Part shown: positions 328 to 16,041 of the stretch, one piece after another
Layout: each line of letters opens with the position of its first letter
Position numbering within the stretch: the first letter of the stretch is position 1
From: Amycolatopsis sp. EV170708-02-1
GTDB lineage: Bacteria > Actinomycetota > Actinomycetes > Mycobacteriales > Pseudonocardiaceae
NCBI RefSeq assembly: GCF_022479115.1
Contig: NZ_CP092497.1
Coordinates: forward strand, 1,550,001-1,614,000
DNA length: 64,000 bases
Direction: 5' to 3'
Position numbers and translations under genes: made by a program
The notes under the pieces: generated by a model
What the model was told of the DNA's origin: nothing
The model's input: the letters and a program-made list of their open reading frames with translations, nothing else
Databases searched by the model: none

Positions 328-1548
328 CTACCCGGCTTCTGGTCCCTTCAGCAGCACCGGCAGCACACGGTGCCCGTTCGAGATGAACGAGTCCAGATGC
401 CGCAGCTCCTCCGGTGCGGTCGCGAGGGTCATGTCCGGGAAACGCTCGAACAGCGCCGGTAGAGCGATCGCCGCCTCGAGCCGGGCCAGCGGCGCGCCGA
501 TGCAGAAGTGCGCTCCGAAGCCGAAGGCGATATGCGCCTTGTCCGTGCGCGTGACGTCGAACGCGTCGGCGTCGTGCCCGTGCAGTGCGGGGTCTCGCCC
601 GGCGGCGGCGTAGCCCGCCAGAATCGCGTCGCCCTGCCGGATGACCACGCCGGCGACGGCGATGTCCTCGACGGCGTAGCGCAACGGCAGGTTCGCCACG
701 GGTGCCTGCCACCGCAAGGTCTCCTCGATCGCGTCGGTCCAGGAGGCCTGTCCGGCGCGGAGCAGGGCGAGCTGGTCCGGATGGGCCAGTAGCGCGGTGA
801 TGGCCTGGTCGAGGAGGTTCACGGTGGTTTCATGGCCGGCGGAGATGAACAGGATGAGGGTGTCGATCAGTTCCGTTTCGTCGAGCCGGGCGCCGTCGGC
901 CTGCGCGGCGATGAGCGCGGTGGTGAGATCCTCGCCGGGGTTCTCCCGCTTGGCGGCGACGAGTTCGGTGAAGATCGAGTGGATGTCCTGGTACGCGGCC
1001 AGCATCGCCTCTTGGCTCGCCGACGTCCGGAAGAAGACGTCGACCGAGTGCCGAAGCCTGCCGCGCGCCGAGTCCGGTACGCCGAACAGATGGCAGATCA
1101 CTTCGATGGGGACCGGATAGGCGAAGTTCTCCCGCAGATCGACGGGTTCGTCCGCGGGCCGGGCCGCGAGCCCGTCCAGCAGATCGGTGACGATCCGGGT
1201 GATCCATGGCTCCAGCGTGGCGATCCTGCGTGCCGTGAAGGCCTGCGTCACGAGCGAGCGGAGCCGTTTGTGGTCGGCACCGTAGGCGGTGAACATGTTC
1301 CGCACGGAGACCCACACCAGCAACGGCCAGTCCGCGCTGACGTCGGCCAGCGCCGGCCAGTGCTGCCGGGCGTCCTTGGAAACCCGCGGGTCGCTGAGCA
1401 GATCGCGCAGGAGTTCGTATCCCGTCACCGACCAGGCCACGACACCGCCCGGCAATTCGACCCGGGTGATCGGGCCGTGTTCGCGTAGTCGTTCGTTCTC
1501 GGCGTGGATGTCTTGGCCGTTCGGATCCAGAACCAGGGGACGCGTCAC
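328..1548 (-). CDS. Cytochrome P450
   Basis: This 406-residue soluble P450 has the usual bacterial length. The I-helix oxygen-binding motif AGHETT, the K-helix ETLRW (ExxR) and the heme loop [10 protein letters not shown] with axial Cys349 are all present. Its N-terminus, [21 protein letters not shown], resembles CYP105/CYP107-type actinobacterial enzymes. It needs an external ferredoxin and reductase. It is the last gene of the leftward iac-like operon, 86 bp after the iacF homologue, and no P450 belongs to the proteobacterial iac pathway as I know it. It may oxidise an indole or oxindole intermediate, or may simply be a neighbour. The start is the ATG giving the full conserved N-terminus. 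Confidence 0.9.
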
Positions 1549-1634
1549 CGGGGATCACCCTTTCTCGGCGGAGCGGACCGGGTCCAGCGTGCCAGCGGTG
1601 CCCGTCGCCCGGCTATTCGCCAAACGGTGGTCGC

Positions 1635-2588
1635 TCAGTACAGCTCGATGACGAGCCGGTCGGTGAGCGCACGTGAGACACAAAGTGCCATTTGGCCTTC
1701 GCGGTCGGCCGCGGTCAGGCAGTTGTCCCGATGGTCCGGCGTGCCTTCGAGCACGCCGGACACACACGAGCCGCAAATCCCTTCCTCACAGGACTTGAAC
1801 ACCTCGATGCCGTTGTCCTCCAGCACCGCCAGGATCGATTTCCCCGCCGGTACCTCGAATTCCTCGCCGGTGTCGAGTTCGACGGTCAGGGGACGGTCGC
1901 CGGAGGTGTCCACTTCCGCGGCTTCGAAATGCTCGACGTGCACGTGGTCCGCGCCGACGACCGGGCCGAGCACGTCGCCGACCTGGCGCATGAAACCGTC
2001 GGGGCCACAGGTGTAGACGTGGGCCGACGGCGTCAGGACCTCGGCGATCGTCCGCAGAACGGCGGGATGTTCGCCGCGCGGGACGCCGAAATGCGGCCGG
2101 ACGCGGTCGGCGAACTCGACCCGTTCCTCCAGAAGTCCCACGAACGCCGCGGTTTCCCTCGAACGCGCGAAGTAGTGCAGCTCGAATTCGCTGCCCCAGG
2201 TGTAGAGCTCGTAGGCCATCGAAAGCAGCGGCGTGATGCCGATGCCACCGGCGACGAGGACGTGCCGGTCCGCGTCTTCGGCGACCGTCAGGAGATTGCG
2301 CGGCTCGCTGATCTTGAGGTGATCGCCGACCGAGACCTGGTGCATCGCCACGGATCCACCGCGCGAGTCCGGCTCCCGTTTGACCGCGATCAGGATCGAC
2401 CGCGGATCGTCGGGGGCGCCGCACAGCGAATACTGCCGCAGCACCCCCGTCGGGCCGACCACATCGACATGCGCCCCCGCCCGGTAACGGACGCGCAGCG
2501 GTTCGTCGTCCTCCCGGACCAGCCGCAGGGTACGGATTTCCGGTGTCTCCTCGGTGATTTCGACGACGCGGAACAGGACGTTCGTCAT
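1635..2588 (-). CDS. iacF: IacF-like ferredoxin/reductase of the Rieske oxygenase
   Basis: This 317-residue protein has the phthalate-dioxygenase-reductase layout: an FMN-binding barrel (RQYSLCG), an NAD-binding domain (VAGGIGITPLLSM, then CGPDGFM) and a C-terminal plant-type [2Fe-2S] domain with Cys267, Cys272, Cys275 (CEEGICGSC) and Cys303. It should carry electrons from NADH to the IacC/IacD oxygenase in the cytoplasm. It lies 15 bp after the SDR gene in the same operon, matching the iacE-iacF order described in Pseudomonas putida 1290. Function is inferred from family plus gene order. VanB-type reductases of other oxygenases look the same alone. Confidence 0.85.
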   Translation of the reverse strand: MTNVLFRVVEITEETPEIRTLRLVREDDEPLRVRYRAGAHVDVVGPTGVLRQYSLCGAPDDPRSILIAVKREPDSRGGSVAMHQVSVGDHLKISEPRNLLTVAEDADRHVLVAGGIGITPLLSMAYELYTWGSEFELHYFARSRETAAFVGLLEERVEFADRVRPHFGVPRGEHPAVLRTIAEVLTPSAHVYTCGPDGFMRQVGDVLGPVVGADHVHVEHFEAAEVDTSGDRPLTVELDTGEEFEVPAGKSILAVLEDNGIEVFKSCEEGICGSCVSGVLEGTPDHRDNCLTAADREGQMALCVSRALTDRLVIELY

Positions 2589-2603
2589 CCAGGTGCCTCC
2601 AGG

Positions 2604-3353
2604 TCAGCGCATGAACAGGCCGCCGTTCGCGTCCCAGCAGGCGCCGGTGACGGAGGCGGCTTCGGGGGAGGCGAGCAACGCCACCATCTCGGCGATGAAC
2701 GTCATGCTGCCCAGCCGTCCGACCGGGATTCCGGTCGTCAGCCGGTCGAGGTTCTCCTCACCGACGATCCGGTGGACCATGGGGCTGTCCTGCGGTCCGG
2801 GGGAGACCGCGTTCACGGTGACGCCGCTGGCGGCGAGCTCGCGGGCGAACACCTTGGTCGCCGTCAGGACCGCGCCTTTGGACGACGCGTAATGCCCGCC
2901 GGTCGTGGTTCCGCCGTTCTGGCCCGCCAGGGAGGCCATGTTGACGATCCGGCCGTACCCCGCCTCGGCCATATGCGCGCCGAACAGCTGACAGGCGTGG
3001 AAGGTGCCGTTGAAGTTCACCGCCATCACCTCGTCGAGCTCCTGCGGCGTGATCTCCAGCAACGGCCGCGCCTGGGTGCGCGCGGCGTTGTTGACCAGCA
3101 CCTGGACCCCGCCGAAGTCACCGAGCACCGACGCGAGCAGCTGGTCGATGTCGGGACGGCTGGCGACGTCGACGCGGTAGCTCTGGGCGTGTGCCCCGCT
3201 CCGGTCGAGTTCGGTTGCGAGGCGTTTCGCGGCGGCCTCGTCGAGGTCGGCGATCGCCACCCGGTGGCCACCGCTGTGCAGGCGCCGGGCGATCCGCTCG
3301 CCGAGCCCGGTCGCCCCGCCGGTGATCACGGCGACCGGCGCGGTGCCGCTCAC
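2604..3353 (-). CDS. iacE: IacE-like short-chain dehydrogenase
   Basis: A classical SDR of 249 residues with the nucleotide motif TGGATGLGE (residues 11-19), NNA at 88-90 and catalytic Ser141, Tyr155 and Lys159 (YASSK). In described iac clusters IacE acts on an early oxindole-acetate intermediate. The exact reaction cannot be read from this sequence. The start is GTG at 3353, overlapping the stop of the upstream beta-subunit gene by 4 bp, which indicates translational coupling. SDRs are diverse, so the assignment rests mainly on operon position. Confidence 0.85.
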   Translation of the reverse strand: MSGTAPVAVITGGATGLGERIARRLHSGGHRVAIADLDEAAAKRLATELDRSGAHAQSYRVDVASRPDIDQLLASVLGDFGGVQVLVNNAARTQARPLLEITPQELDEVMAVNFNGTFHACQLFGAHMAEAGYGRIVNMASLAGQNGGTTTGGHYASSKGAVLTATKVFARELAASGVTVNAVSPGPQDSPMVHRIVGEENLDRLTTGIPVGRLGSMTFIAEMVALLASPEAASVTGACWDANGGLFMR

Positions 3354-3844
3354 AGCAGGAATCCCGCGGCGGGAACGGCTTCGTCGGCGTTGACCAGACG
3401 GACGACCTTGCGGGCGAAGCGGTCTTCGTCGCCACTAGCGCCGAGGCGGACGACGTAGTCGACGTCCGCGGCCCAGAGGTCGTGACGGCCGCGTTTGTAC
3501 GCCACGATGATCTGTGCGGCCTTGAGCGTGACCGACCGGTCGCCGACGTCGGTGGGGATGAAACGCGAGACGGTCCGCACGGTGATCGCCGAGTCCACCG
3601 CGGCGATCGCGTAGCCCTCGGTCATCCGCCGCACGCGCAGCCCGCGCATCCGGGCGTCGTCGTGGACCATGTTGAGGACGTCGTCGAAGTCCTCGGCGTC
3701 GCGTTCGATCGGGATGATGTACATCGCGTCGTCGGCGTAAAGTCCTTGCCAGGCCTCGTAGTCCTTGGCGTCCAGCAGCGCGGCCTCGCGCCAGGCCAGC
3801 TCGATCGCGCGGACCACCCGCGGATCGGTGAGGGTCTCAGTCAT
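3350..3844 (-). CDS. iacD: IacD-like Rieske oxygenase small (beta) subunit
   Basis: This 164-residue protein belongs to the aromatic-ring-hydroxylating dioxygenase beta-subunit family (SnoaL/cystatin-like fold). Typical features are WQGLYADDAMYIIPIERD near the N-terminus and MRGLRVRRMTEGYA in the middle. The beta subunit has no metal site and packs with the Rieske alpha subunit. Its ATG overlaps the end of the alpha gene by 8 bp and its stop overlaps the SDR start by 4 bp, so the three genes are tightly coupled. Confidence 0.9.
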   Translation of the reverse strand: MTETLTDPRVVRAIELAWREAALLDAKDYEAWQGLYADDAMYIIPIERDAEDFDDVLNMVHDDARMRGLRVRRMTEGYAIAAVDSAITVRTVSRFIPTDVGDRSVTLKAAQIIVAYKRGRHDLWAADVDYVVRLGASGDEDRFARKVVRLVNADEAVPAAGFLL

Positions 3845-5132
3845 CGCTCATCATCCGCTTCCATTGGGCGTACGCCGCCCGCATTCCGGTCTCGTCGGTG
3901 ACGTGGCTGGTCGGCCAGCCCTCGGCCGAGGGCTTCTCGCGCCCCAGACCGCGGTTGACCATGATCGGCAGCTCGGGCGCGCCCTGGGCGCCGCGCTGCA
4001 CCCGGTCCCAGCCTTCGGAGTCGTCCGGAGTGCCGAACCCGAACGGACCCTGGAAATGCTCGTGGGCGCGCAGCCGCTCCCGGTTGACCGGCCCGACGAT
4101 CTCGGCCGGGCCGTCGCTGCCGAGGGCGACGTGCTCGATGACGGTCTCGTCGACGCTGATCGGCCGCAACACCCGGAAGAACGAGATCGACATCGACACG
4201 TTCGGGAACAGATTGAGGTTGAACCCGGTGCCGTGCACGGCACGGACGAGCCTGCGGATCTCGGCTTCGTTCGCCCCGGCGGCTTCGAGCCGGGCGACCA
4301 GGCCGTCGAACCGCGGCTGGAGCGGCTCGCTGCCGTCGTCCGCCTCCAGATCGGAGTGTTCGGGGACCATCTGCATCACCGAGTGGCCGTTCCCCAGATC
4401 GTGGGTGACCGCCGTCGGATCGGTCATGAACGACATCATCTCGGCGGTTTCCGCGTCGACCGAGGCCATCCAGGAGCGGTGCACGATGGGGAAGTGGTAC
4501 CCGTCGGTGGTGTTCTCCAGCTGGATCTTCCAGTTGCCGCGGTAAGTGAACCGATGGGTGCCGAGCACCTTCACCGGGTAGCCGCCACCCTGCGCCATGA
4601 AGCGATCGATCCACAGTTTGACGTCGCCGAGGAAATCGGCCAGCGGCTCGGCCTCGGCGTTCAGGGTCGCGAAGATCATCCCGCCGTAGGACTCGGTGCG
4701 CAGGGTCTTCAGCCCGAGATCGGCCTTGTCCATGACACCCTCGTACCCGTCGGGGTACGGGATGCCACGCAGTTTGCCGTCGAGGCCGTAGGACCAGGCG
4801 TGGTACGGGCAGGTGAACCCGTTGGCGTGGCCCGTTTTCTTCTCGCAGAGCGACGCGCCCCGGTGGCGGCAGCGGTTCACGAGCGTGCGGATCTCACCCT
4901 TGCGGTCCTTGGTGACGATGACCGGATGCCGTCCGACGTGGGTCGATTTGAAGCTGCCCGCCTTGGGCAGTTCCGATTCGTGGGCGACCCAGATCCACGA
5001 CTTCTCGAAGATCTTCGTCATCTCCTGGTCGAAGATCGCGGGGTCGGTGTACATCCGGCCGGCGACCCGGTCGCCGAGGACGAGGTCCGCGGGCGGCAGG
5101 TCGTACACGGTGGCGGCGGTGAATTCGGTCAT
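3837..5132 (-). CDS. iacC: IacC-like Rieske oxygenase large (alpha) subunit
   Basis: A 431-residue alpha subunit. The N-terminal Rieske [2Fe-2S] domain shows CRHRGASLC and CPYHAWSYGLDG with ligands Cys88, His90, Cys108 and His111. The catalytic domain shows DGYHFPIVHRSW with two Fe(II)-ligand histidines at 213 and 218. The frame runs further upstream without a stop, but MTEFTAATVYD at 5132 starts the family homology and follows the upstream gene by 5 bp. In the iac pathway this oxygenase is thought to act on an oxidised indole-acetate intermediate on the way to catechol. Homologues act on salicylate or anthranilate, so substrate is inferred from context. Confidence 0.9.
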   Translation of the reverse strand: MTEFTAATVYDLPPADLVLGDRVAGRMYTDPAIFDQEMTKIFEKSWIWVAHESELPKAGSFKSTHVGRHPVIVTKDRKGEIRTLVNRCRHRGASLCEKKTGHANGFTCPYHAWSYGLDGKLRGIPYPDGYEGVMDKADLGLKTLRTESYGGMIFATLNAEAEPLADFLGDVKLWIDRFMAQGGGYPVKVLGTHRFTYRGNWKIQLENTTDGYHFPIVHRSWMASVDAETAEMMSFMTDPTAVTHDLGNGHSVMQMVPEHSDLEADDGSEPLQPRFDGLVARLEAAGANEAEIRRLVRAVHGTGFNLNLFPNVSMSISFFRVLRPISVDETVIEHVALGSDGPAEIVGPVNRERLRAHEHFQGPFGFGTPDDSEGWDRVQRGAQGAPELPIMVNRGLGREKPSAEGWPTSHVTDETGMRAAYAQWKRMMSDD

Positions 5133-5137
5133 CGCGA

Positions 5138-5509
5138 TCAGCCCCGGTATTCGCGCGGTGTGAGGGCGCGGCCGATCCGCGCTTCGATCTTGGCGTACTT
5201 CCACAGCTTCCACGGGCTTTCGCCGACCGGAGTGGTGCGCAGGAAGTCGCACGCCTGCTTGACGGTTTCCTGCGTGTCGACGTCGCAGAGCAGGTAACAG
5301 GTCCACGGCCAGCCGTCGGACGGGCCGACCATATGCGAGTCGTCGTCGATGTCGCCGATGAAATCCACACCGGGCAGGCCCTTGATGCCGTCCATCAGCG
5401 CGACGAAGGCGGTCCAGACGTCGCCGGCGGCGACGCCGCCTTCCGGCAGGTCGAAGAAGTTCTGGTTGATACCGATGCAGAACAGCACGCGCAGCGGGGT
5501 GTCGCTCAT
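5138..5509 (-). CDS. iacB: IacB-like protein of the IAA-catabolic cluster
   Basis: This 123-residue protein starts MSDTPLRVLFCIGINQNFFD and contains GVDFIGDIDDDSHMVGPS. It has no signal peptide, membrane segment or metal motif. Its size and place between the iacA- and iacC-like genes match IacB, the uncharacterised small protein of iac clusters. A dimeric alpha/beta-barrel fold is possible but not demonstrable here. The chosen ATG at 5509 excludes an arginine-rich in-frame extension that is a shadow of the iacA gene. The biochemical role is unknown. Confidence 0.75.
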   Translation of the reverse strand: MSDTPLRVLFCIGINQNFFDLPEGGVAAGDVWTAFVALMDGIKGLPGVDFIGDIDDDSHMVGPSDGWPWTCYLLCDVDTQETVKQACDFLRTTPVGESPWKLWKYAKIEARIGRALTPREYRG

Positions 5510-5544
5510 GGTGGTGGTCCAACTCCTCGTCGGTCGGTGGTGGG

Positions 5545-6684
5545 TCACTGGAAGCCGGGAACGGTGGGCGGATGGCCCATCAGCACGGCACCCGCGGCGT
5601 CGTACATGGCCGGCCCCAGGAAGGCGTGCTGCTGCGGGACGAGGGCGTCGCCGAGCAGCCACTGCAGCGGATGGCTCGTGGCGATGGCGCCCGTCCCGGA
5701 CAGGCCGATGACCCGGTTGACGGTGTCGGCGGCGGTCTTCGCGAGATGGGTCGAGGCCAGCCGGAGATGGGCGTTCTGGTGCGGCGCCACGGGATCGCCG
5801 TCCAGCACGGTCTGCCACGCCTCGTCGGTGACCTCGTAGAAGTACGCCCTCGCCGAGCGCATCGTCGCTTCGGCTTCGGCGAGTCCCGTCCGGTAGTAGG
5901 CGCGGTCGGCGAGTTTCGGCGCGCCTGTGACACCCGAACGGCCGCTGCCGACCTCCGTCGCGAAGTCGAGCGCCGCGCGCGCGACCCCCGCGCCGACGAT
6001 CGCCAGGACCTGGGAGGCGTAGGCGAGGGTGGGGTAGCGGTACAGCGGCTCGTCGATCGTGGGCTCACCGCCGCGGATGAACGTCCATTCGCGCGGGACC
6101 TCGACCTTGTCGACGACCAGGTCGAAGGAACCGGTGCCCTTCATCCCGACGACGTCCCACTCCTGGATGATCTCGACCTGCTCGGGCCGCAGCAGGGCGG
6201 TGCGCGGCTTTCCGGCGGTCGTGTCGTCGCCGGGGATACCGACGCCCAGGACGTCCGCGCCCATGCAACCGCTCGCGAATTTCCAGCGCCCGTCGACCAG
6301 GAAGCCGGAGACGGTGGGCTCGGCTCGTTGGACGGGGAAGAGGCCACCGGCGAAGCACACGTCAGGACCGTCGGCGTAGAGCTCGGCCTGCGTCTCGACG
6401 GGCAGCGCCGCGAGGTAGACCAGCGCGGAGCCGAAGCTGGCCACCCAGCCGGTGGATCCGTCGACGACGGAGATCCGCTCCACCATCCGCAGGAACTCGG
6501 CCGGGGGCAGTGGCCTGCCGCCGAACCGTTCGGGGGTCGCGGAGCGGTAGACGCCCGCCGCCTTGAGCCGGTCGACGAAGTCGCGGGAGACGTACCTCTG
6601 GTCGCGGAACTCCTGACGGCGCTCGAGGAGTTCGGCCAGGACATCGTCGAGTGTCACGGCCGGGCTCTCCTGGATCTGGGCCAT
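5545..6684 (-). CDS. iacA: IacA-like flavin-dependent indole-3-acetate monooxygenase
   Basis: A 379-residue protein of the acyl-CoA-dehydrogenase-fold, two-component flavin monooxygenase family (HpaB/naphthocyclinone-hydroxylase type). Visible landmarks are RYVSRDFVDRLKAAGVYRS and PERFGGRPLPPAEFLRMVERIS near the N-terminus, and STGWVASFGSALVYLAALP around residue 75. These enzymes use reduced flavin from a partner reductase, here presumably the IacG homologue at 8402. IacA carries out the first oxidation of the indole ring in characterised clusters. It is the first gene of the leftward operon, with GAGGAG 7 bp before its ATG and a TAGCGT -10-like box near 6720. Confidence 0.88.
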   Translation of the reverse strand: MAQIQESPAVTLDDVLAELLERRQEFRDQRYVSRDFVDRLKAAGVYRSATPERFGGRPLPPAEFLRMVERISVVDGSTGWVASFGSALVYLAALPVETQAELYADGPDVCFAGGLFPVQRAEPTVSGFLVDGRWKFASGCMGADVLGVGIPGDDTTAGKPRTALLRPEQVEIIQEWDVVGMKGTGSFDLVVDKVEVPREWTFIRGGEPTIDEPLYRYPTLAYASQVLAIVGAGVARAALDFATEVGSGRSGVTGAPKLADRAYYRTGLAEAEATMRSARAYFYEVTDEAWQTVLDGDPVAPHQNAHLRLASTHLAKTAADTVNRVIGLSGTGAIATSHPLQWLLGDALVPQQHAFLGPAMYDAAGAVLMGHPPTVPGFQ

Positions 6685-6790: not shown

Positions 6791-6809
6791 GGTAGGGGAA
6801 ATCCTTACC
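6791..6809. promoter_or_regulatory. Candidate response-regulator box in the divergent iac promoter
   Basis: GGTAGGGGAAATCCTTACC is an imperfect palindrome centred about 44 bp upstream of the kinase start. Similar sequences occur before iacG (8328-8344) and between the symporter and second amidase (14530-14596). The cluster encodes a FixJ/NarL-type response regulator that could bind it. The assignment is an inference. Confidence 0.5.
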
Positions 6810-6831
6810 GGAGTGCCCGGCGGCGAACTCC

Positions 6832-6837
6832 TATGCT
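6832..6837 (+). promoter_or_regulatory. -10 box of a leaderless promoter for the sensor kinase
   Basis: TATGCT ends 6 bp before the GTG start at 6844, the spacing expected if transcription begins at the start codon. No Shine-Dalgarno sequence is present. TAGCGT at 8390-8395 has the same spacing to the iacG ATG, so both transcripts may be leaderless. Confidence 0.45.
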
Positions 6838-6843
6838 GAGGCC

Positions 6844-8331
6844 GTGGAGGTCGACCCGATCGCGCCTGAGCTGGCCACCGGCGACTTCGTGGCGATGATG
6901 AACGCCTCGAAGGCGTGCGTGCTGGTCCACGACGCGGCGACCAAGAACATCCTGTGGGCAAATCCCGCCGCGTGCGAGATGCTCGAATTCAGTGTCTCGG
7001 AGCTGCGCCCGCTCAAGGCCAACCACATGAGCAGCTCCGCCCAGCAGTACGACCGGGTGATCGGCCGGGCGTGGCTCCAGGCGGCGGTGGAACACGGTTC
7101 GAGCCGGATCGTGTGGCACTACCGGAGCAAATCCGGCCGCGTGATCCCCACCGACGCGGTCGCCATCCGGGTCGAGCTGGAGCGCGGGCCCGCGGTGATG
7201 GTCCAGTTCCGCGACATCCAGCGCGCGGAGGAGATCGAACGAGAGCTGAAGCTGACGACGTCGTACGTCGACGCGCTGGCACGGCACACCTCGACCGTGG
7301 CGTTCATGCTCGACGCCGCGGGCGCGGTGCGGTTCGCGACGGACAGCGCCCTGACCTTCCTCGGCCTGACCGGCGACGACGATCGGCTCGCGGGGGAGCC
7401 GCTGACCGCGTACGCGCGGCTGTACCTGGGCGGCAGGCCTGTGCGCTGGGCCGAGGTGGTCGCGGGTGCCGATCCGGTGGGGCCGGTGCAGCTGGAGCTG
7501 CCGGGGGAGAGCGCGACCTGGCTGGAAGGGAGCCTGGAGCGGCTTTCCGAGTCCGAGGTCGACGCGTATCTGATGATCCTGCACGACGTGTCCGAGCGCG
7601 TCCGCGGCGAAGCACGACGAGAGCTGGAGCTGCGGCACGAGAACTATCTGGCGCGCTACAACGCCATGGGGGACATGGCGATGGCGATCGCGCACGAACT
7701 CGGCCAGCCGCTGGCCGCCGCGGCCAACTTCATCGCCGGCATCCGGGCACGGGCCGCCATGATGGCGGACGGCGGTGACGTCCGTGAGCAGATGGGCTAC
7801 GGCCTGGACAGCGTCGCCCGCCAGATCGACCGGGCCAAGGACATCGTCGGTTCGCTGCGGTCCTTCGTCGGTCATCTGGAGCAGGTCGAGCAGGTGGTCG
7901 ACCTGAACGAGATCGTCCGCGAATGCCTGTACTTCATCGAGCTGAGCGCCGCGCCGAACTCCGTCGGCGTCGAGGTCCGGCTCGATCCGGCGCCGGTGCT
8001 GGTGCGGTGCGAACGCGTCCTCACCGGGCAGGTGGTGATGAACCTGTGCCTCAACGCCATCGACGAGACCACCGAATGCGATCCCGTGCGGCGGCGGATC
8101 ACGGTGGGCACCCGGGCCAAGGAAGGGGTCGGCGTCCTGACCGTCGACGATCACGGCCGCGGCGTCGCCAGGGATCCCTTCGCCGAGTCGTTCACCAGCA
8201 AACCCGGTGGCAGCGGGATCGGGCTGGCGCTGAGCCATCGCATCATCACCCGGCAGCACGGCAGCATCTGGGCCGAGCGGCGGGAAGGCGGTGGCTCGCG
8301 GTTCGGGTTCGCCCTGCCGCTGGCCACGTAA
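6844..8331 (+). CDS. Cytoplasmic PAS-domain sensor histidine kinase of the iac cluster
   Basis: This 495-residue kinase lacks membrane segments. A PAS domain covers roughly residues 15-130 (KACVLVHDAATKNILWANPA), a second PAS-like segment follows to about 260, and the H-box AIAHELGQPLAAAANF places the phosphorylated histidine at 284. A catalytic domain with MNLCLNAIDE, VDDHGRG and SGIGLALSHRI ends the protein. This FixL/TodS-like design suits sensing of a cytoplasmic aromatic ligand, plausibly indole-3-acetate. It is divergent from iacA and starts the rightward genes; its partner is the response regulator at 10396. The substrate sensed is an inference. Confidence 0.88.
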   Translation: MEVDPIAPELATGDFVAMMNASKACVLVHDAATKNILWANPAACEMLEFSVSELRPLKANHMSSSAQQYDRVIGRAWLQAAVEHGSSRIVWHYRSKSGRVIPTDAVAIRVELERGPAVMVQFRDIQRAEEIERELKLTTSYVDALARHTSTVAFMLDAAGAVRFATDSALTFLGLTGDDDRLAGEPLTAYARLYLGGRPVRWAEVVAGADPVGPVQLELPGESATWLEGSLERLSESEVDAYLMILHDVSERVRGEARRELELRHENYLARYNAMGDMAMAIAHELGQPLAAAANFIAGIRARAAMMADGGDVREQMGYGLDSVARQIDRAKDIVGSLRSFVGHLEQVEQVVDLNEIVRECLYFIELSAAPNSVGVEVRLDPAPVLVRCERVLTGQVVMNLCLNAIDETTECDPVRRRITVGTRAKEGVGVLTVDDHGRGVARDPFAESFTSKPGGSGIGLALSHRIITRQHGSIWAERREGGGSRFGFALPLAT

Positions 8332-8344
8332 GGGAAATCCTCAG
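8328..8344. promoter_or_regulatory. Second iac box upstream of iacG
   Basis: GTAAGGGAAATCCTCAG overlaps the kinase stop codon and matches the box at 6791-6809 over its GGGAAATCCT core. A -10-like TAGCGT at 8390-8395 precedes the iacG start by 6 bp. This suggests a separate, possibly leaderless, promoter for iacG onward. Confidence 0.45.
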
Positions 8345-8401
8345 GCGGCGCGGTGGAACTCGGGATATCGCCGGTTTCGGCCCCGGCTCTAGCGTCGAGG
8401 T

Positions 8402-9159: not shown

Positions 9160-10385
9160 ACCTCACGCGCCCGTGGTCGCTGCGGGAACTCGTCCGGGAC
9201 CTTCGGGAGGGGCGGACCACACCGGAGGACGCTCACCAGCGCGCGCTGGCGAGGATCGCCGAGACGGACGCGGAGCTGCACGCCTGGGTCGGACAGGCGG
9301 ACTTCCTTCCGGGCGCGGGTGTGCCACTCGGGGTCAAGGACATCATCGATCTGGCGGGTGTGCCCACCCGGTGCGGCTCCGCCCTGCGCGCGGAGGCCGC
9401 TCCGGCGACCTCGGACGCGGCGATCGTGACCGCGTGGCGCGCGGCCGGGGCGATGCCGATCGGGAAGACGGTCACCACCGAGTTCGCGTTCTTCGCCCCG
9501 GGCCCGACCCGGAATCCCGCCGCCCCCGGCCATACGCCGGGCGGCTCGTCGAGCGGGTCGGCCGCCGCCGTCGCGTCCGGGCAGGTTCCGCTCGCGCTCG
9601 GTTCGCAGACCGCCGGATCGGTCACCAGGCCGGCGTCCTACTGCGGGGTCGCGTCGCTCGTCATGAGTCACGGCCGGTACCCGGTCACCGGGGTGACGGG
9701 ATTGAGCCCCAGCCTGGACAGCCACGGCGTCTTCGCGGCCACGGTGGCCGACCTCACGATCGCGTGGCAGGCGCTGGCCGGCGAGACCGGTCCCGCGCGG
9801 GAACCGCGGATCCTGGTGTGGGCCGCCGACGCGCTCGACGTCGTCGAAGCACCGATGCGGAACGCCCTGGCGCAAGCGGCGAAGCGTCTGCAGGAAGCCG
9901 GGGCGACCGTCGAGCCGTTCCGCGACGAAGGGCTGATGGCCGAGCTCACGGCCGCGCATCCCGTGGTGATGGCCTACGAGGCAGCGCGGGAAAGGGCCGC
10001 CGAGCTCGCCGTGGCCGAGCGGTTGAGCGCTCCCTTGGCACAGCTGCTCCGGACCGGTGCCGCGACCTCGGCCGCCGAGTACGAAACCGCCCGCGCCACC
10101 ATCGACGGCGGCTCCGTCCGGTTGGCCGAGGTGTTCGACGCCTACGACGTCGTGCTCGGCCCGGCCGCGCCCGGCGCGGCGCCACGCGGGCTGGAGGCGA
10201 CCGGGAACCCGGTGCTGAGCCGGGGCTGGCAGGCGCTCGGGCTGCCCGTGGTCGCCCTGCCCGGGTTCACCGACGCGGAGGGGCTGCCGCTCGGTCTGCA
10301 ACTCGTCGGCCGTCACCGCGGGGAAACCGCACTGCTCGGGCACGCCCGCTGGGCGGAGCGGGTGCTCGCCGGGGTTTCATGGTAA
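9156..10385 (+). CDS. iacH: IacH-like amidase-signature hydrolase
   Basis: This 409-residue protein belongs to the amidase signature family with the Ser-cisSer-Lys triad. The lysine lies in VPLGVKDIIDLAG (about residue 57), and GGSSSGSAAAVASG and GSQTAGSVTRPASYCG hold the serines near residues 130-155. IacH homologues are part of iac clusters, but their substrate is uncertain; hydrolysis of amide conjugates of indole-3-acetate is a reasonable guess. The GTG at 9156 overlaps the previous stop and is preceded by GGGAGG. An in-frame upstream extension is arginine-rich shadow sequence and was rejected. Confidence 0.87.
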   Translation: MNLTRPWSLRELVRDLREGRTTPEDAHQRALARIAETDAELHAWVGQADFLPGAGVPLGVKDIIDLAGVPTRCGSALRAEAAPATSDAAIVTAWRAAGAMPIGKTVTTEFAFFAPGPTRNPAAPGHTPGGSSSGSAAAVASGQVPLALGSQTAGSVTRPASYCGVASLVMSHGRYPVTGVTGLSPSLDSHGVFAATVADLTIAWQALAGETGPAREPRILVWAADALDVVEAPMRNALAQAAKRLQEAGATVEPFRDEGLMAELTAAHPVVMAYEAARERAAELAVAERLSAPLAQLLRTGAATSAAEYETARATIDGGSVRLAEVFDAYDVVLGPAAPGAAPRGLEATGNPVLSRGWQALGLPVVALPGFTDAEGLPLGLQLVGRHRGETALLGHARWAERVLAGVSW

Positions 10386-10395
10386 GGAGCTCTCC

Positions 10396-11037
10396 ATGGT
10401 CACCACCGATTCCGCGTCCGGCGGCGAGACGTCGCCGGTGGTCTACATCGTCGACGACGACGAGGCCATCCGCCAATCCCTGGTGTTCCTGCTGGAGAGC
10501 GTCGGCATCCAGGCGCTCGTCTACCCGGACGGGCCGACGTTCCTGGAGGAGTTCGACCCCGACGAACCGAGCGTGCTGATCATCGACGTCCGGATGCCGG
10601 GGCTCAGCGGCTTGCAGCTGCAGGAGAAGCTGGTCGCCCGCGAGTTCCCGGCGCCGGTGATCTTCTGTTCCGCGCACGGCGACATCCCGATGTCGGTGCG
10701 GGCGCTCCGGCTGGGCGCCGTGGACTTCCTCGAAAAGCCGTACGAGCCGCAGCGGATGCTTGAGGTCGTCCAGGCGCAGCTGGTGGTCGCGGCGGAACGG
10801 TTCGCGGAGGCCGCGTGCCGCAAAGCGGTCACCGAGCGGATCGCGACACTGACCCCGCGCGAGCGGGAGGTGCTCCGGCTGGTGATCGACGGTCTGCCCA
10901 GCCAGCTGATCGCGCGGCGGTTGGGGACGAGCGTGAAGACCGTCGACGTGCACCGGGCCCGGATCAAGGCCAAGACCGAGTCGGACAGCCTCGGCACCCT
11001 GGTGCGCGATGTCCTCCAGCACCAGGTCACCGTCTAG
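10396..11037 (+). CDS. FixJ/NarL-type response regulator of the iac cluster
   Basis: A 213-residue regulator with a receiver domain (VYIVDDDEAIRQSL at residues 16-29, phospho-acceptor Asp64 in LIIDVRMPG, Lys in LEKPYEP) and a C-terminal LuxR-type helix-turn-helix (TPREREVLRLVIDG, then LGTSVKTVDVHRARI). AAGGAG precedes the ATG, 10 bp after iacH. It is the obvious partner of the kinase at 6844. Characterised P. putida iac clusters use a MarR-type repressor, so two-component control is a notable difference. It probably binds the GGGAAATCCT boxes near 6800, 8336 and 14588. Confidence 0.88.
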   Translation: MVTTDSASGGETSPVVYIVDDDEAIRQSLVFLLESVGIQALVYPDGPTFLEEFDPDEPSVLIIDVRMPGLSGLQLQEKLVAREFPAPVIFCSAHGDIPMSVRALRLGAVDFLEKPYEPQRMLEVVQAQLVVAAERFAEAACRKAVTERIATLTPREREVLRLVIDGLPSQLIARRLGTSVKTVDVHRARIKAKTESDSLGTLVRDVLQHQVTV

Positions 11038-11042
11038 CCGCC

Positions 11043-11088
11043 CTCGTGAGTGGTAAGGACGGTTCTAACCGTCCTTACCACTCACGAG
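11043..11088. terminator. 46-bp palindrome, GGACGGTT family, copy 1
   Basis: Two perfect 22-bp arms (GTGAGTGGTAAGGACGGTT is the inner part) are separated by CT. It lies 5 bp after the response-regulator stop. Near-identical copies are at 34445-34490 and 52351-52396. It probably ends transcription from both directions; no T-run follows. Confidence 0.6.
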
Positions 11089-11105
11089 CCTGCCTGGCGA
11101 TGTCC

Positions 11106-11151
11106 TGTGACTGACTGGACGACACGGGTGATCCGGCGGACGACACGCGTG
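11106..11151. repeat. 21-bp repeat array A, left part (split by IS element)
   Basis: Two complete 21-bp units (11106-11126, 11127-11147) of the form CGTGAYYGG plus GGACGACACG are followed by the first 4 bases (CGTG) of a third. The third unit continues after the insertion at 12419. With the IS and one CGTG copy removed, the array is seven blocks of exactly 21 bp: three forward units, one 21-bp spacer, three inverted units. Confidence 0.8.
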
Positions 11152-11184
11152 TGGAGTTGTCCCCGGATGGCGGACACGGGGTTT

Positions 11185-12066
11185 TCACGCGGTTTGGTGG
11201 TGGCTGTAGCTGGTTCGGGTTTCGTGGGGTGTTCGGTGGCCGACTGTCGAATGTAGACGGTCGTGGTTGTAGTAGTGGAGGTAGCGGTATAGGTCGTGTC
11301 GTGCCTGGTCACGGGTGCGCCAGATGGTGGTGCCGATCTCGGTTTTGAGGGTGGCGAAGAACGACTCGGCGACGGCGTTGTCGTAGCAGGATCCGGCCCG
11401 TCCGATCGAGGACCGGATCCTGTGCTCGGTGAGCGCGGCGCGGAATCGGCCGGAGGTGTACTGGACGCCGCGGTCGGAGTGGAACACCGCGTCGGGGCGG
11501 ATCAAGCCGCGTGCGGTGGCCAGGGCGATCGCGTCGCAGACCAGGTCTGTGCGCAGGTGATCGCCCATCGCGTGCCCGACGACCTCACGGTTGTGCAGAT
11601 CGATCACCGTGGCCAGGTAAAGCCAGCCCTGGAACGTGGGCAGATAGGTGATGTCCCCGACGAACCGCTGACCAGGGCGCTCGGCAGTGAAATCACGGCG
11701 GATCAGATCCTGGACCACCGCGACCGGCGACGGATCGGCCTTGGTGAGCGACCGGCGTTTGCGGCGGGTGCTCCCGACCAGGCCCTGCTCACGCATCAAC
11801 CGCTCCACCCGCTTGTGGTTCACCACCCGCCCGCGCCGGCGCAGCTCCGCGGTGATCCGGGGCCGCCCATAGGCACCCCGGTGCTGCGCGTGGATCGACG
11901 CGATCACCACCACCAGCTCCCGCTCCTGTTCCGCCGCGGCCTCACGGGCCGCCCCGGCCGCGGCCCACTCGTGGAAACCCTGCCGGCGCAGACCCAGGAC
12001 CTGACACAACCGCTTCACACCGAACTCGGCGCGATGCTCGGAGATGAACCGGTAGCGGTAGATCAT
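11185..12066 (-). CDS. IS3-family transposase OrfB (DDE integrase)
   Basis: This 293-residue frame holds an HTH_21-like N-terminus (HRGAYGRPRITAELRR) and an rve integrase core. The catalytic acidic residues appear in FVGDITYLPT (D), FHSDRGVQYTS (D) and YDNAVAESFFATLKTE (E). Its ATG overlaps the OrfA stop by 4 bp. In this family the active transposase is usually an OrfAB fusion made by -1 frameshifting; no A-rich slippery run is obvious in the short overlap, so ATGA coupling is the simpler reading. Confidence 0.92.
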   Translation of the reverse strand: MIYRYRFISEHRAEFGVKRLCQVLGLRRQGFHEWAAAGAAREAAAEQERELVVVIASIHAQHRGAYGRPRITAELRRRGRVVNHKRVERLMREQGLVGSTRRKRRSLTKADPSPVAVVQDLIRRDFTAERPGQRFVGDITYLPTFQGWLYLATVIDLHNREVVGHAMGDHLRTDLVCDAIALATARGLIRPDAVFHSDRGVQYTSGRFRAALTEHRIRSSIGRAGSCYDNAVAESFFATLKTEIGTTIWRTRDQARHDLYRYLHYYNHDRLHSTVGHRTPHETRTSYSHHQTA

Positions 12067-12350
12067 CGATCCATCTCTTTGGCAAAATAAGCGGCCGCTC
12101 GACGCAGGATCTCCTTCTCTTTCTGCAGCTCAGCGACCTGCTTCCGCAACCGCTGCACCTCATCGACGACCGCGCGATCCTCCACCGGCCCGACTTCCAC
12201 GGCCTGTTTGGCGGCATTCACCCACGACCGCAAGGTCTCGTGATTGACACCCAGCTCACGAGCGATCTGACGCAACGGGCGACCACTCGTGTTCACCAGC
12301 TCGATCGCGTCACGACGGAACTGCTCCGGATACTTCGACCTGCGAGACAC
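12063..12350 (-). CDS. IS3-family transposase OrfA (helix-turn-helix)
   Basis: A 95-residue protein with an N-terminal HTH_Tnp_1 domain (RRSKYPEQFRRDAIELV, then ARELGVNHETLRSWV) and a C-terminal leucine-zipper-like helix (VQRLRKQVAELQKEKEILRRA). It recognises the element's ends. The frame is open from start to stop, and its stop overlaps the OrfB start. Confidence 0.92.
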   Translation of the reverse strand: MSRRSKYPEQFRRDAIELVNTSGRPLRQIARELGVNHETLRSWVNAAKQAVEVGPVEDRAVVDEVQRLRKQVAELQKEKEILRRAAAYFAKEMDR

Positions 12351-12414
12351 CAGGACATCCTCCCTCCAGACCTGTGTCTGGAATCAAGGTGTCCGCTCCC
12401 AGGGGGCAACTCCA

Positions 12415-12519
12415 CGTGACTGGATGGACGACACGTCCGTGCCCGGGGCTCCGCCGCGCGTCGTCCTTCCCATCACGCGTGTCGTCCATCCCGACACGTG
12501 TGTCGTCCATCCAGTCACG
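12415..12519. repeat. 21-bp repeat array A, right part
   Basis: After the IS duplication the third forward unit is completed (12415-12435), a 21-bp G+C-rich spacer follows (12436-12456), then three inverted units at 12457-12477, 12478-12498 and 12499-12519 (CGTGTCGTCC at the start, TCACG or CACG at the end). Paired with the left part this would form a three-unit-long stem. Bases 12520-12575 hold nothing recognisable. Confidence 0.8.
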
Positions 12520-12575
12520 CCCGCCTGCTGCGATTGCTGGCGCCTATGGGGCGAACGTGACGATCGTCGAGGCCT

Positions 12576-13145
12576 TCACGGACCGGGCACGGGGTCCGGC
12601 GCCATCAGCACCGACGCCGCCGGGAAGTCCGACGCGAAACCCCCGGGCAAGGGGGCGATGAAGACGTTCTCGGTCCGCGTGCGGGTGATGAGCCAACGGC
12701 CGTCCTGGCGCCGGAAGGCGTTGTTGAGCCTGCTCGATCGCAGCAGACCGGTGCCGTCGGCGTACAGCCACGGCTGGACGTGGATCCATTGCCCGTCGGC
12801 CCGGTCGCCGTCGACGTGGATCTGCTCCGACGTCAGGTAGTGGGCGTTGAGGACCAGCGCCGGATCCCGCTTCTCACCCCAGAACCGTTCGAAATGCGCC
12901 CGGATCCCGTCCTTGCCGACCGCGCGGCCGAACTGCCCGTCGTAGTACTCGCCGACGCCCTCCCAGACGGCGTCCTCCGTGTACAGGTCGAGGATCAGCT
13001 CGATGCGGTGGTCGTCGCCGGTGACGCCGAACTCCGGGCACGGCGTGTCGCAGAGGAACATGTACCGGGCCTGGATCCGGCGGATCTCGGCCTCGGCCTC
13101 CAGCACCTCGACGCGGTGACGCAGTTCGGCGAGTTCGTCCTTCAT
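12576..13145 (-). CDS. iacI: IacI-like SnoaL-fold protein
   Basis: This 189-residue protein starts MKDELAELRHRVEVLEAEAE, a short coiled segment, then IRRIQARYMFLCD, typical of the SnoaL-like/NTF2-like family (polyketide cyclase or dehydratase fold). IacI of known iac clusters has this fold and no firmly settled reaction. The ATG overlaps the stop of the symporter gene (ATGA), so the two were co-transcribed. It lies beyond the IS element, 1.5 kb from the response regulator. The frame is intact; a longer upstream reading frame is shadow of the transporter gene. Confidence 0.8.
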   Translation of the reverse strand: MKDELAELRHRVEVLEAEAEIRRIQARYMFLCDTPCPEFGVTGDDHRIELILDLYTEDAVWEGVGEYYDGQFGRAVGKDGIRAHFERFWGEKRDPALVLNAHYLTSEQIHVDGDRADGQWIHVQPWLYADGTGLLRSSRLNNAFRRQDGRWLITRTRTENVFIAPLPGGFASDFPAASVLMAPDPVPGP

Positions 13146-14463
13146 CGGCGGCTCCTCACTGGTGCGGTTTCGGGAAGGGCGAGCAGGCAGACGACGGTCA
13201 GCGCCATCCCGCCCGCGAGGTAGTAGCCGACCGACGTCGAGGAGCCGGTCCATTCGATGAGCCGGTTCGCCATCGACGGCGCGAGGCCGCCGCCGAGCAC
13301 CGCGCCGAGCTGGTAGGCCAGGCCGGCGCCCGACTGCCGTTGTTCGGGCGTGAACAGCTCCGTCAGGTAGGTGATCAGCGGGCCGAACAGGAACCCGGTG
13401 AGGGCGAAACCGCCTGCGACGGCGAGCGCCCACGCGGTCAGCGTGCCGATCTCCGCGATCGGGAACAGCAGGAACATGTAGGCCAGTACCGCGACGGCCG
13501 CCGCGAGCATCACGGGTTTGCGGCCCAGCCGGTCGGAGAGCCGGGCGCCGAGCACGACCGTCACGGCGTGCAGCGCGAGGCCGGGCAAGGTACCCCACAG
13601 CACGTCCTGGATGTCCAGGCCGAGGCCCTTCGGCGCCGGACCGGCGGCGTAGGAGAGCATGAACCCGGCCAGGACGAACATGACGCCGTTGAGCCCGGTG
13701 TTGGCCCCCGCGGCGAGCAGCAGCCTGCCCCAGTTGTCGCGGATGACGTTCCAGATCGGCAGCTTGACGATCTTCTCGTCCAGTTTGCTGGCCGCGAGCT
13801 CGTGGAACACGGGCGATTCCTCGAGCGCCCGCCGCGCCCAGACACCGATGGCCAGGACGACCGCGCCGGCGATGAACGGGATCCGCCAGCCCCAGCTGGT
13901 GATCACCCCTTGCGGCAAGTAGAAGATCAGCACGAAGGCCAGGTTCGCCAGCAGCGCCCCCACCGGCGACCCCAAGGCGACGAACGCGCCGAACGCCGCC
14001 CGCCGCGACGGTGGCGCGTGCTCCACGGCGAGCACCGACGCGCCGCCCAGTTCCCCGCCCGGGAGAACCCGTGCACCAGGCGCAACAGGACGAGCAGCAA
14101 CGGCGCGGCCACACCCATCGTGGCGTAGCCGGGCAGTAGTCCCATCAGGACGGTGGCGGCGCCCATGAGATAGAAGGTGATGAGCATGGCGCGGCGGCGG
14201 CCGTAGCGGTCGCCCACCCAGCCCATCACGATCGCACCGAGCGGCGCGACGACGTAGCCGATCGTGTAGGTCGCCAGGCTCATGAACGAGGCGAACCAGG
14301 GATCGGTGTCGCCGGAGAAGAACACCTTGGGGAAGACCAGTGCGGAGGCGACCGTGTAGATCGAGAAGTCGAAGAACTCCAGCGACGTCCCGGCGCCCGC
14401 GCCGATCGCGAGCCTGCGGGTCTGGGTGGACGTGATCCTGGATGGAGCGGTGGATGCTGTCAT
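13142..14463 (-). pseudogene. Metabolite:H+ symporter (MHS/MFS) with a one-base frameshift
   Basis: Two frames together make one MHS-family transporter of about 440 residues (ShiA/ProP-like). The N-terminal half (14463 to about 14062) shows GAGTSLEFFDFSIYTVASAL and VGDRYGRRRAML, ending LLRLVHGFSR. The C-terminal half (about 14060 to 13142) continues ELGGASVLAVEHAPPSRRA with the remaining membrane segments. Restoring one G in the CGGGCGGGG run near 14058-14063 rejoins them. Either the gene is recently inactivated or the base is a sequencing error. The neighbours suggest it imported indole-3-acetate or a related acid. The ATG at 14463 is chosen; more upstream sequence is not conserved. Confidence 0.8.
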
Positions 14464-14529
14464 GCGCGCTCTTCCTTGAACGGTGACGGGCGGTCGACGT
14501 TGCACCCCTCCCGGCAACGTTCGTCCCAA

Positions 14530-14596
14530 GGTAGGAAGGTCCTGGTACCGCGCCTAGTGGAGGAACCCGTTCCCCGGCTGAAGGTTTTCCCTACCT
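14530..14596. promoter_or_regulatory. Divergent control region with two candidate iac boxes
   Basis: Between the symporter and the second amidase lie the palindrome GGTAGGAAGGTCCTGGTACC (14530-14549) and, read on the minus strand, CAGGTAGGGAAAACCTTC (14579-14596). Both resemble the GGTAGGGGAAATCCTTACC box at 6791. This suggests the same regulator controls these genes. Confidence 0.4.
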
Positions 14597-14622
14597 GTCC
14601 CCGACATCGAGGAGGTCCGCGC

Positions 14623-16041
14623 GTGAGCGCCGTCAACGATCTGTCCGCCACCACCCAGGCCGGGCTGCTGGCCTCCGGCGAGTTGTCGGCGCGGGAGCTG
14701 CTCGACGCCACCCTCGACCGGGTGGCGGAGCTGAACCCGGTGCTGAACGCCGTAGTCAGCATCGACGAGGAGAGCGCGCGGGCCGCCGCCGCGGCGGCCG
14801 ACGAAGCGCGGGCGGCCGGGCGGTCGCTCGGACCCCTGCACGGGCTTCCGCTCGCCGTGAAGGATCTCCACGCGACGGCCGGGATGCGCACCACGTTCGG
14901 CTCGCCCGCGTTCGCGGACAACGTGCCCGAGGTCGACGAGCTCGTCGTCGCCCGGATGCGGGCGGCGGGAGCGGTCGTCTTCGGCAAGACGAACGTTCCC
15001 GAGTTCGGCGCCGGCTCGCACACCTTCAACCCGGTCTTCGGCGTGACCCGCAACCCCTACGCGCCGGATCGGTCCGCGGGCGGTTCGAGCGGAGGCGCCG
15101 CCGCCGCGCTCGCGGCTGGGCTGACGTCGCTGGCCGACGGCAGCGACATGGGCGGATCGCTGCGGAATCCGGCCTCGTTCTGCAATGTCGTCGGCCACCG
15201 CCCGAGCCCCGGGCGAGTCCCGGCATGGCCGGCGAAAGACGCCTGGTTCACCCTCGGTGTCCAAGGCCCGATGGGGCGCACGGTCGCCGACACGGCCCTG
15301 CTGCTGTCCGTCCAGGCGGGCCCGGACGAGCGCGCGCCGCTGTCGTTGCCCGAATCCGGTGCCGTGTTCGCCGCCGGATTGCCGACCCGGCTGGACGGCC
15401 TCCGGATCGCGGTCTCACCCGATCTGGAGGGCCGGGTGCCGGTCGACGCCGAGGTCGCGGCGATCGTGGAAGCCCAGGTGGACGTCCTGCGCGACCTCGG
15501 TGCCGAAGTCGTCTCGGGCTGTCCCGACCTGACCGGCGCCGAGGAGGTCTTCCAGACTTTCCGCGCCCTGAACTACGCGCAGGGGGTCGGCGACCTCGTC
15601 GACGGCGAACCGGACAAGGTGAAGCAGGCCATCCACTGGAACGTCGCGAAAGGACGTGCGCTCACCGGCGCGGACGTCGCCACGGCCATCCGGCTGCGCA
15701 CCGAGCTCTTCCACCGTGTCCGCGCCTATTTCACCACCGTGGACGCCGTCGTTCTTCCCGCCAGCCAGGCACTTCCGTTCGACGCCGAACTGGAGTACCC
15801 GAAGACGGTGGGCGGGTCCGAAGTGGACGACTACCTGCACTGGATGCGGGCGGCCTACCTGATCTCGGCCACGGAATGCCCGGCGACCGCGGTCCCGGCG
15901 GGCTTCACCGGCGAAGGACTGCCGGTCGGGGTCCAGGTGGTCACGGCCCGTCACGCCGACCTGCGCGCGCTCGGAATCGCGCACGCGCTGGAGAAGGCGA
16001 CCGGGCACACCGCTCGCAGGCCGCCGGTCTCGTCGACGTGA
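14623..16041 (+). CDS. Amidase-signature hydrolase, second of the region
   Basis: This 472-residue amidase has the triad motifs in LPLAVKDLHATAG (Lys, about residue 79), GGSSGGAAAALAAG (about 154) and GSDMGGSLRNPASFCNVVG (about 173). The family hydrolyses amides, including indole-acetamide. Conversion of an indole-3-acetyl amide to indole-3-acetate upstream of the iac pathway is an attractive but unproven role. GGAGGT at 14611-14616 places the start at the GTG at 14623; the in-frame extension to 14476 crosses the promoter region and was rejected. It is divergent from the symporter. Confidence 0.87.
   Translation: MSAVNDLSATTQAGLLASGELSARELLDATLDRVAELNPVLNAVVSIDEESARAAAAAADEARAAGRSLGPLHGLPLAVKDLHATAGMRTTFGSPAFADNVPEVDELVVARMRAAGAVVFGKTNVPEFGAGSHTFNPVFGVTRNPYAPDRSAGGSSGGAAAALAAGLTSLADGSDMGGSLRNPASFCNVVGHRPSPGRVPAWPAKDAWFTLGVQGPMGRTVADTALLLSVQAGPDERAPLSLPESGAVFAAGLPTRLDGLRIAVSPDLEGRVPVDAEVAAIVEAQVDVLRDLGAEVVSGCPDLTGAEEVFQTFRALNYAQGVGDLVDGEPDKVKQAIHWNVAKGRALTGADVATAIRLRTELFHRVRAYFTTVDAVVLPASQALPFDAELEYPKTVGGSEVDDYLHWMRAAYLISATECPATAVPAGFTGEGLPVGVQVVTARHADLRALGIAHALEKATGHTARRPPVSST

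Follow-up and report, generated by a model that had tools for sequence, protein, structure and literature searches.

Breakdown of auxin by root bacteria alters root growth. The subject of this analysis is a cluster of genes of the iac type, associated with degradation of the auxin indole-3-acetic acid (IAA), in the soil actinomycete Amycolatopsis sp. EV170708-02-1. The window studied, 64,000 nucleotides in all, comprises bases 1,550,001–1,614,000 of a one-contig genome of 9.66 Mb; positions are those of the window unless said to be genomic. The full iacABCDEFGHI set, iacA included, is present, and we consider it very probable that the locus is a complete iac-type cluster that would oxidise IAA to catechol, hand the catechol to catBAC for entry into the ortho pathway and be controlled by a two-component system of its own acting through a 17-bp sequence, the iac box.

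Leftward from position 6684 run iacA, iacB, iacC, iacD, iacE and iacF (6684–1635), spaced by overlaps of 4 bp (E/D) and 8 bp (D/C) and gaps of 5, 15 and 35 bp. Rightward from 6844 run a sensor kinase, iacG, iacH and a response regulator and, past an insertion sequence of the IS3 family, iacI and an MFS transporter run leftward and a second amidase rightward. An initial annotation, made from the sequence alone, had correctly read the tightly overlapping leftward genes, the rightward iacG and iacH and the position of iacI beyond the IS. Its list of iac genes stands, but it overlooked the kinase, the response regulator, the frameshifted transporter and the membership of the second amidase.

1635–2588, minus strand: iacF-like ferredoxin/flavin reductase; Fer2 domain; 40–52 % identical to IacF of Acinetobacter, Rhodococcus and Streptomyces
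2604–3353, minus strand: iacE-like short-chain dehydrogenase; TGGATGLG, NMAS and YASSK (YxxxK) motifs
3350–3844, minus strand: iacD-like ring-hydroxylating dioxygenase beta subunit; PF00866; 31–65 % identical to IacD
3837–5132, minus strand: iacC-like alpha subunit of a Rieske dioxygenase; iron motifs CxH..CxxH (Rieske) and DxxHxxxxH
5138–5509, minus strand: iacB-like protein; 55–62 % identical to IacB; predicted ferredoxin-like alpha+beta fold
5545–6684, minus strand: iacA-like flavin-dependent indole-3-acetate monooxygenase; acyl-CoA dehydrogenase fold
6792–6808, no strand: iac box 1, in the divergent promoter region of iacA and the kinase, preceding iacA by about 108 bp
6844–8331, plus strand: PAS-type, FixL-like sensor histidine kinase; PAS and HATPase_c; start codon uncertain
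8328–8344, no strand: iac box 2, which overlaps the stop of the kinase gene and precedes iacG by about 58 bp
8402–8902, plus strand: iacG-like flavin reductase; PF01613; 54 % identical to Streptomyces iacG product
9159–10385, plus strand: iacH-like amidase-signature protein; PF01425; 31–50 % identical to IacH
10396–11037, plus strand: FixJ-type response regulator; receiver PF00072 and LuxR-type helix-turn-helix PF00196
11151–12419, minus strand: IS3-family insertion; orfA 12063–12350, orfB 11185–12066; TGGAGTTG ends; 4-bp CGTG duplication
12576–13145, minus strand: iacI-like SnoaL-fold protein; PF13577; 77 % identical to Rhodococcus and 36 % to Acinetobacter IacI
about 13142–14463, minus strand: MFS transporter; frame broken near 14050–14060
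14578–14594, no strand: iac box 3, about 115 bp from the transporter start and about 28 bp from the second amidase start
14623–16041, plus strand: second amidase; PF01425; island member

All nine iac frames and both regulator frames are open. Pfam backs the type of every cluster protein except IacB, for which it gave no match, and in an NCBIfam scan no iac-named model scored. Two reading frames were set aside: that at 3837–5522 is over-extended at full length, with the alpha subunit starting at about 5132 and iacB (5138–5509) lying in another frame, and the antisense frame at 6805–8259 was rejected as a real gene.

Identity of the proteins and the proposed pathway

All nine proteins, A to I, have blastp counterparts in the complete cluster on a plasmid of A. 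baumannii DS002, where the gene order is H-A-B-I-C-D-E-F-G-R; the letters of that cluster, absent from its record, are those we take to follow from order and homology. The best identities are 45 % for A, 62 % for B, 55 % for C, 31 % for D, 51 % for E, 40 % for F, 30 % for G (over an 80-residue fragment only), 31 % for H and 36 % for I. Adjacent homologues of iacC and iacD have been used as the criterion for iac-like loci (PMC9613470), and such an adjacent pair is found here, 80 and 65 % identical to the Rhodococcus YL-1 proteins against 55 and 31 % for those of Acinetobacter. In a tree of 33 alpha subunits, that of the window lies inside a 27-row Iac clade with 99/99 support, and the benzoate (BenA), anthranilate (AndAc) and aniline dioxygenases and two other rows lie outside it; the outgroup branches of this tree are very long, the aniline dioxygenase is two identical rows, and its rows include no proven Iad sequence. 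At the level of sequence, the match of nine proteins together with this placement is far beyond chance. The initial annotation had proposed an iac-type cluster in an actinomycete, had asked for its proteins to be compared with known Iac proteins, and had named grouping of the alpha subunit with other dioxygenases as one outcome that would undo the proposal; the nine matches and the tree both bear it out.

Counting against this identification is the distance of IacD, IacG and IacH from the Acinetobacter proteins (30–31 %). All three are closer to the Streptomyces or Rhodococcus clusters, and the assignment of IacG rests on the Streptomyces protein. Among 120 IacA relatives listed, nine carry the JGI name indole-3-acetate monooxygenase and more are called AidB-like acyl-CoA dehydrogenase. 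In a tblastn search of plasmids, among the best 60 of the 157 records with a match, IacA identity drops from 41.5 to 33 % on passing from row 42 to row 43. Sequence searches of the PDB with IacA, IacE and the second amidase returned general relatives only. An AlphaFold2 model of IacB (16 rows; pLDDT, the model's own confidence score, 83.7) has a ferredoxin-like fold, for which membership of the dimeric alpha+beta barrel proteins was considered, but a fold search gave general matches and no specific relative, and therefore no function is drawn from the model.

By analogy with characterised homologues, from which the substrate and the order of reactions are taken, IacA with reduced flavin from IacG would convert IAA to 2-oxindole-3-acetate, and IacE would convert this to dioxindole-3-acetate. 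The dioxygenase IacCD, with IacF as its likely reductase, would then lead onward to catechol together with IacB, IacH and IacI, whose roles are unsettled. The IacA and IacE reactions are known from C. glathei, where IacB is dispensable for dioxindole-3-acetate formation (PMC7225977), and catechol is given as the end product of the iac pathway (PMC9613470).

The last step, delivery of catechol to the ortho pathway, would fall to chromosomal catBAC. On a Streptomyces plasmid, catB, catA and catC stand immediately after iacABCDEFGH. Further examples come from mapped loci: an IacA alignment matched at least 573 confirmed genome stretches, the best 80 of which were mapped, a set that thus leans towards the window's kin. 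Among these, the loci with catBAC inside the mapped iac stretch include Embleya, two Saccharopolyspora and Nonomuraea D8015, where it is 3.5 kb from iacF. The catBAC of the present genome lies unlinked, some 240 kb off (genomic 1,803,637–1,805,916), is 64–71 % identical to that of Streptomyces and is open over nearly its full length; it scores 145 bits with the NCBIfam model for proteobacterial catechol dioxygenase, whose curated cut-off is 392. The complete iac set, membership of the Iac clade, the linkage of iac and catBAC elsewhere and the open catBAC operon here all count towards the degradation of IAA to catechol as the likely function of the cluster, in line with the initial annotation. 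That it serves instead for another indole or aromatic acid, such as indole-3-propionate or indole, with IAA incidental, would fit the many indole derivatives accepted by IacA and IacE of C. glathei (PMC7225977), and the substrate is not to be read from the sequence of an IacA that shares 45 % identity with the Acinetobacter protein. We nevertheless think this very unlikely, given that the whole A–I set, beyond IacA alone, is kept together and that the alpha subunit falls in the Iac clade.

Two-component control and the 17-bp box

The response regulator has the features of the FixJ/NarL type, namely a phospho-acceptor aspartate (DVRMPG), a receiver and a LuxR-type helix-turn-helix, and its best PDB matches are FixJ 5xso (E 4e-45) and 1yio (E 3e-44), the latter presumably StyR. 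The kinase has PAS domains and an H-box, and its kinase part resembles FixL-derived chimeras in the PDB. The sensor part has no PDB match and thus gives no hint of a ligand. A simple hydropathy scan found no strongly hydrophobic 19-residue stretch and no clear membrane stretch, and the protein is probably soluble. The likeness to FixJ and FixL, the PAS domains and this lack of a clear membrane stretch are the grounds for proposing a cytosolic sensor, which may sense IAA or dioxindole-3-acetate and phosphorylate the regulator. A dimer of the regulator would then bind the 17-bp box at three places: before iacA and the kinase, before iacG, iacH and the regulator gene, and between the transporter–iacI pair and the second amidase.

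The box is a 17-bp near-palindrome with the consensus CTGAAGRWWTCCCCTAC, a short sequence shared by the kinase/iacA divergent intergenic regions of relatives. A scoring matrix was built from the 23 of 34 actinobacterial loci in which a regular expression found it, with the 11 misses unused and the window held out; the 23 include several near-identical Amycolatopsis and Nocardia loci. The three highest scores in the window all fall in the cluster, at 14578 (23.3), 8328 (20.2) and 6792 (13.8), against 3.2 for the next in the 64 kb and 10.0 for the best of five mononucleotide shuffles. At a cut of 12, the kinase–iacA interval holds a box in 30 of the 34 loci. Across 31 complete actinobacterial loci, upstream regions (limited to 350 bp and totalling 57,862 bp) hold 50 peaks, versus 8 in 578,618 bp elsewhere, some of these eight preceding a transporter or kinase past the 350-bp limit; 21 of the 50 are matrix-building sites, which leaves 29 others, and Markov resampling gave six peaks in 1,909,440 bp. 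Sites precede catB in three loci (L012, L014 and L016) and a transporter in two (L012 and L013). In all five near relatives of the window the three boxes occupy corresponding positions, and two are found in another Amycolatopsis genome, G007, whose iac genes have a different layout. A pattern for the box, STRARGRWWWYCCYTAS, has three exact matches in the 9.66-Mb genome, all in this cluster; allowing one mismatch adds five rows, two of them the other strand of cluster sites.

From this distribution we infer that the box is the operator of the response regulator. Several results pull the other way. The pattern was composed after the window's sites were known, and its backward control gave two matches at up to one mismatch. 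At the cut of 12, no box was found in the kinase–iacA interval of L009, L051, L054 and L055, the four remaining actinobacterial loci, nor in the same interval of any of 26 Burkholderiales loci, whose regulators are homologous; a weak peak occurs elsewhere in ten of these 26, in some cases within the kinase gene or outside the cluster. Nor is there a box in the 15 kb around this genome's catBAC. The box might then serve a different regulator or be a conserved element of promoters, an explanation that gains from the actinobacterial and Burkholderiales loci in which kinase and iacA adjoin with no box between them and from the restriction of the map to named genes, so that another shared regulator could have been missed. 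We regard this as unlikely: the near-palindrome is what a dimer would be expected to bind, the box recurs before several operons of a cluster, catB among them, and matches to both kinase and regulator occur in 65 of the 80 mapped loci. If the box is indeed the operator, together with the two-component pair it makes auxin sensing in an actinomycete directly testable; it would also offer a signature for recognising, in genomes, which amidases, transporters and catechol genes belong to the regulon, and could serve as an auxin reporter.

Comparison with known systems, spread and descent

The clusters of the MarR type (Pseudomonas putida 1290, Acinetobacter, Enterobacter soli) share with the window the nine genes A–I and the expected chemistry from IAA to catechol. 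The Acinetobacter example (L006), however, is a single run of genes with a gene at the position of IacR, whereas the window has divergent operons; and where most, though not all, described loci have the MarR regulator IacR, the window has a two-component pair. The regulator of the Acinetobacter cluster has no match in positions 1–22000. Two-component control has been described for Paraburkholderia phytofirmans PsJN and four Pseudomonas strains (PMC11630574), in which, as here, a LuxR-type regulator and a kinase, IacS, belong to the operon. In the Burkholderiales loci, compared with the window or Rhodococcus YL-1, whichever is nearer, identity is 34–39 % for the kinase and 50–54 % for the regulator; the gene order of the two-component type differs from that of the window, and the actinobacterial box is missing from the kinase–iacA interval, as noted above. 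The iad cluster of Variovorax and Bradyrhizobium also degrades IAA with a Rieske dioxygenase, and the window's alpha subunit scores 145 bits against the Rieske chain 7yls_B, which we take to be the Variovorax enzyme. The window has iacA, in contrast to the Variovorax iad locus, which lacks it and yields anthranilate (PMC9613470).

Also close are other actinobacterial clusters (Nonomuraea, Nocardioides, Nocardia, Saccharopolyspora), which have the same box. The whole order of the window is found also in Nonomuraea sp. SYSU D8015 and Nocardioides albidus, to which the window adds the second amidase (none in their mapped stretch), the IS3 element and a frameshift, and from which it differs in its unlinked catBAC. 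The initial annotation was therefore right to call the genes rearranged relative to the proteobacterial MarR type, but the arrangement is no peculiarity of this organism. The divergent split that it remarked on is likewise real but not unusual, the run H-G-kinase facing A-B-C-D-E-F in 24 of the 45 mapped actinobacterial loci (L012–L056). The comparison of synteny across Amycolatopsis for which it called shows the order of iacA–I, kinase and regulator kept in all five near relatives (L133–L137).

Actinobacteria are one of five phyla from which iac- and iad-like loci have been described, and the characterised iac loci that the same paper names are proteobacterial (PMC9613470); in Nocardiaceae, iac clusters have been predicted (PMC12462448). 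With Actinobacteria already counted and Nocardiaceae clusters predicted, the cluster itself is no discovery. The parts that appear new are the candidate operator and the captured amidase: in the literature searched, which did not extend to subscription papers, the PsJN study among them, no operator for two-component iac loci and no such amidase were found described.

Within Amycolatopsis, IacA (E up to 1e-60) occurs in 26 of 80 genomes, and that of the window shares 98 % identity with a protein that bears the name of Amycolatopsis japonica. Of 27 loci of about 4 kb from these 26 genomes, 20 have the kinase and iacA-B-C as divergent neighbours and five have iacA alone; one has A, B and E, and one A, B and C with the kinase on the same strand. 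In a tree of joined IacA–F sequences the window groups with G007, then with Nonomuraea D8015, then with Nocardioides, each with 100 % bootstrap support. Forcing the eight Amycolatopsis rows together is rejected (AU test, p 0.006; the group was chosen after the IacC tree was known), and since a single Amycolatopsis origin is thereby rejected, the island has probably passed between actinobacterial lineages.

Some mapped loci hold less than the full set. In L037, L039, L049, L058, L059, L066 and L091 there are a kinase, a regulator, iacA and mostly iacB, E or G, with no good match to iacC or D in the mapped stretch (L058 is a short contig); a shortened pathway stopping at dioxindole-3-acetate is possible. 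In L035, L038, L042, L043, L045–L048, L050, L052, L071 and L089 there are IacA-like genes (61–72 %) with no match to iacB, C, D or F in the mapped stretch, several cut by contig ends, and another substrate or a biosynthetic use is possible. Rhodococcus has IacA relatives of 73–77 %, some named R. fascians (P0039, P0045), and in L015 and L017 a kinase and a regulator accompany the iac genes. Growth on IAA has been reported for R. fascians PBTS2, in which no iac homologues were detected (PMC7002392); a divergent actinobacterial iac cluster may explain this growth. Iac-like clusters also occur on a Klebsiella plasmid typed conjugative (L093) and on the Acinetobacter plasmid (L006), typed mobilizable.

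Edges and wear of the island

The initial annotation had begun the cluster at 328, with a cytochrome P450 gene (328–1548). G015, an Amycolatopsis genome with no IacA match, is homologous to the window up to 1630 and again from 15977, so that its P450 gene is joined to that of an ABC transporter; this marks the P450 as flank, and the cluster does not start there. The gene is on the same strand as iacF, 86 bp downstream of it, and adjoins the cluster in all five near relatives, as would be expected were it co-transcribed with iacF and part of the pathway. We give that notion hardly any credence: only seven of the 13 genomes (of 80) that have a P450 of at least 83 % identity have iacA, G015 has the gene at the same place with no island, and in G007 P450 and iac genes are on different contigs. 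An AurF-family N-oxygenase and a ferredoxin reductase-like gene adjoin the P450 (L100, 9828–12243, reaching window 1–243), and in G007 they flank the iac cluster at its other end (L138).

No iac box is present in this stretch of G015, and some 65 bp similar to the terminal part of the second amidase survive there, a remnant that suggests loss of the island by deletion and makes a never-occupied site the less likely account. Orthologues of the second amidase (at least 89 %) are found only in the six of 80 genomes with this island, always inside it (that of G020 has one stop within the match), and G007 has none; more distant relatives (54–60 %) occur elsewhere. IacA is present in 17 of 19 genomes with an amidase match (E up to 1e-150) versus 9 of 61 others (Fisher p 4e-9, inflated by shared ancestry), and an amidase of 47–48 % identity stands beyond iacG in four Burkholderiales loci (L074, L085, L086 and L088). 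The second amidase is a candidate auxin-amide hydrolase. Going further, one might tentatively picture a private regulon in which the PAS kinase and FixJ-like regulator act through a box found exactly only here, with catBAC captured in other genera and an amidase that frees IAA from auxin amides captured in the Amycolatopsis japonica-like clade, a proposal whose chances we put at slightly under even. If it is true, stored or conjugated auxin would be consumed too.

The island also bears signs of wear. Near 14050–14060 the transporter gene has one base fewer than in all five relatives, and its two parts, each in a frame of its own, align at 83 and 81 % with the transporter of Nonomuraea D8015. 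This broken frame is a mark against a complete and working cluster, as is the transporter of one of the five relatives (L136, G026), which also seems interrupted, at another place. The IS3 element (1,269 bp) has no match in any of the five near relatives, and a second copy at genomic 590,410–591,674, identical over 1,265 of 1,269 bp, suggests recent movement. It lies between the convergent ends of the regulator and iacI genes, and disruption of a gene by it was therefore rejected. Frameshift, insertion and the loss of the island from G015 might together mean that the cluster is in decay and has stopped working in this strain. We think it improbable, since the nine iac frames and both regulators are open and the insertion falls between two gene ends; a sequencing error could account for the single-base gap, which falls in a GC-rich run, and IAA, a weak acid, may enter with no transporter. 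In the intergenic stretches around the insertion (11037–11150 and 12419–12576), repeated units like GGACGACACG can be seen by eye, and a further inverted repeat, AAAGTGGCTTTCGCGAC, lies at about 250–315 of the window.

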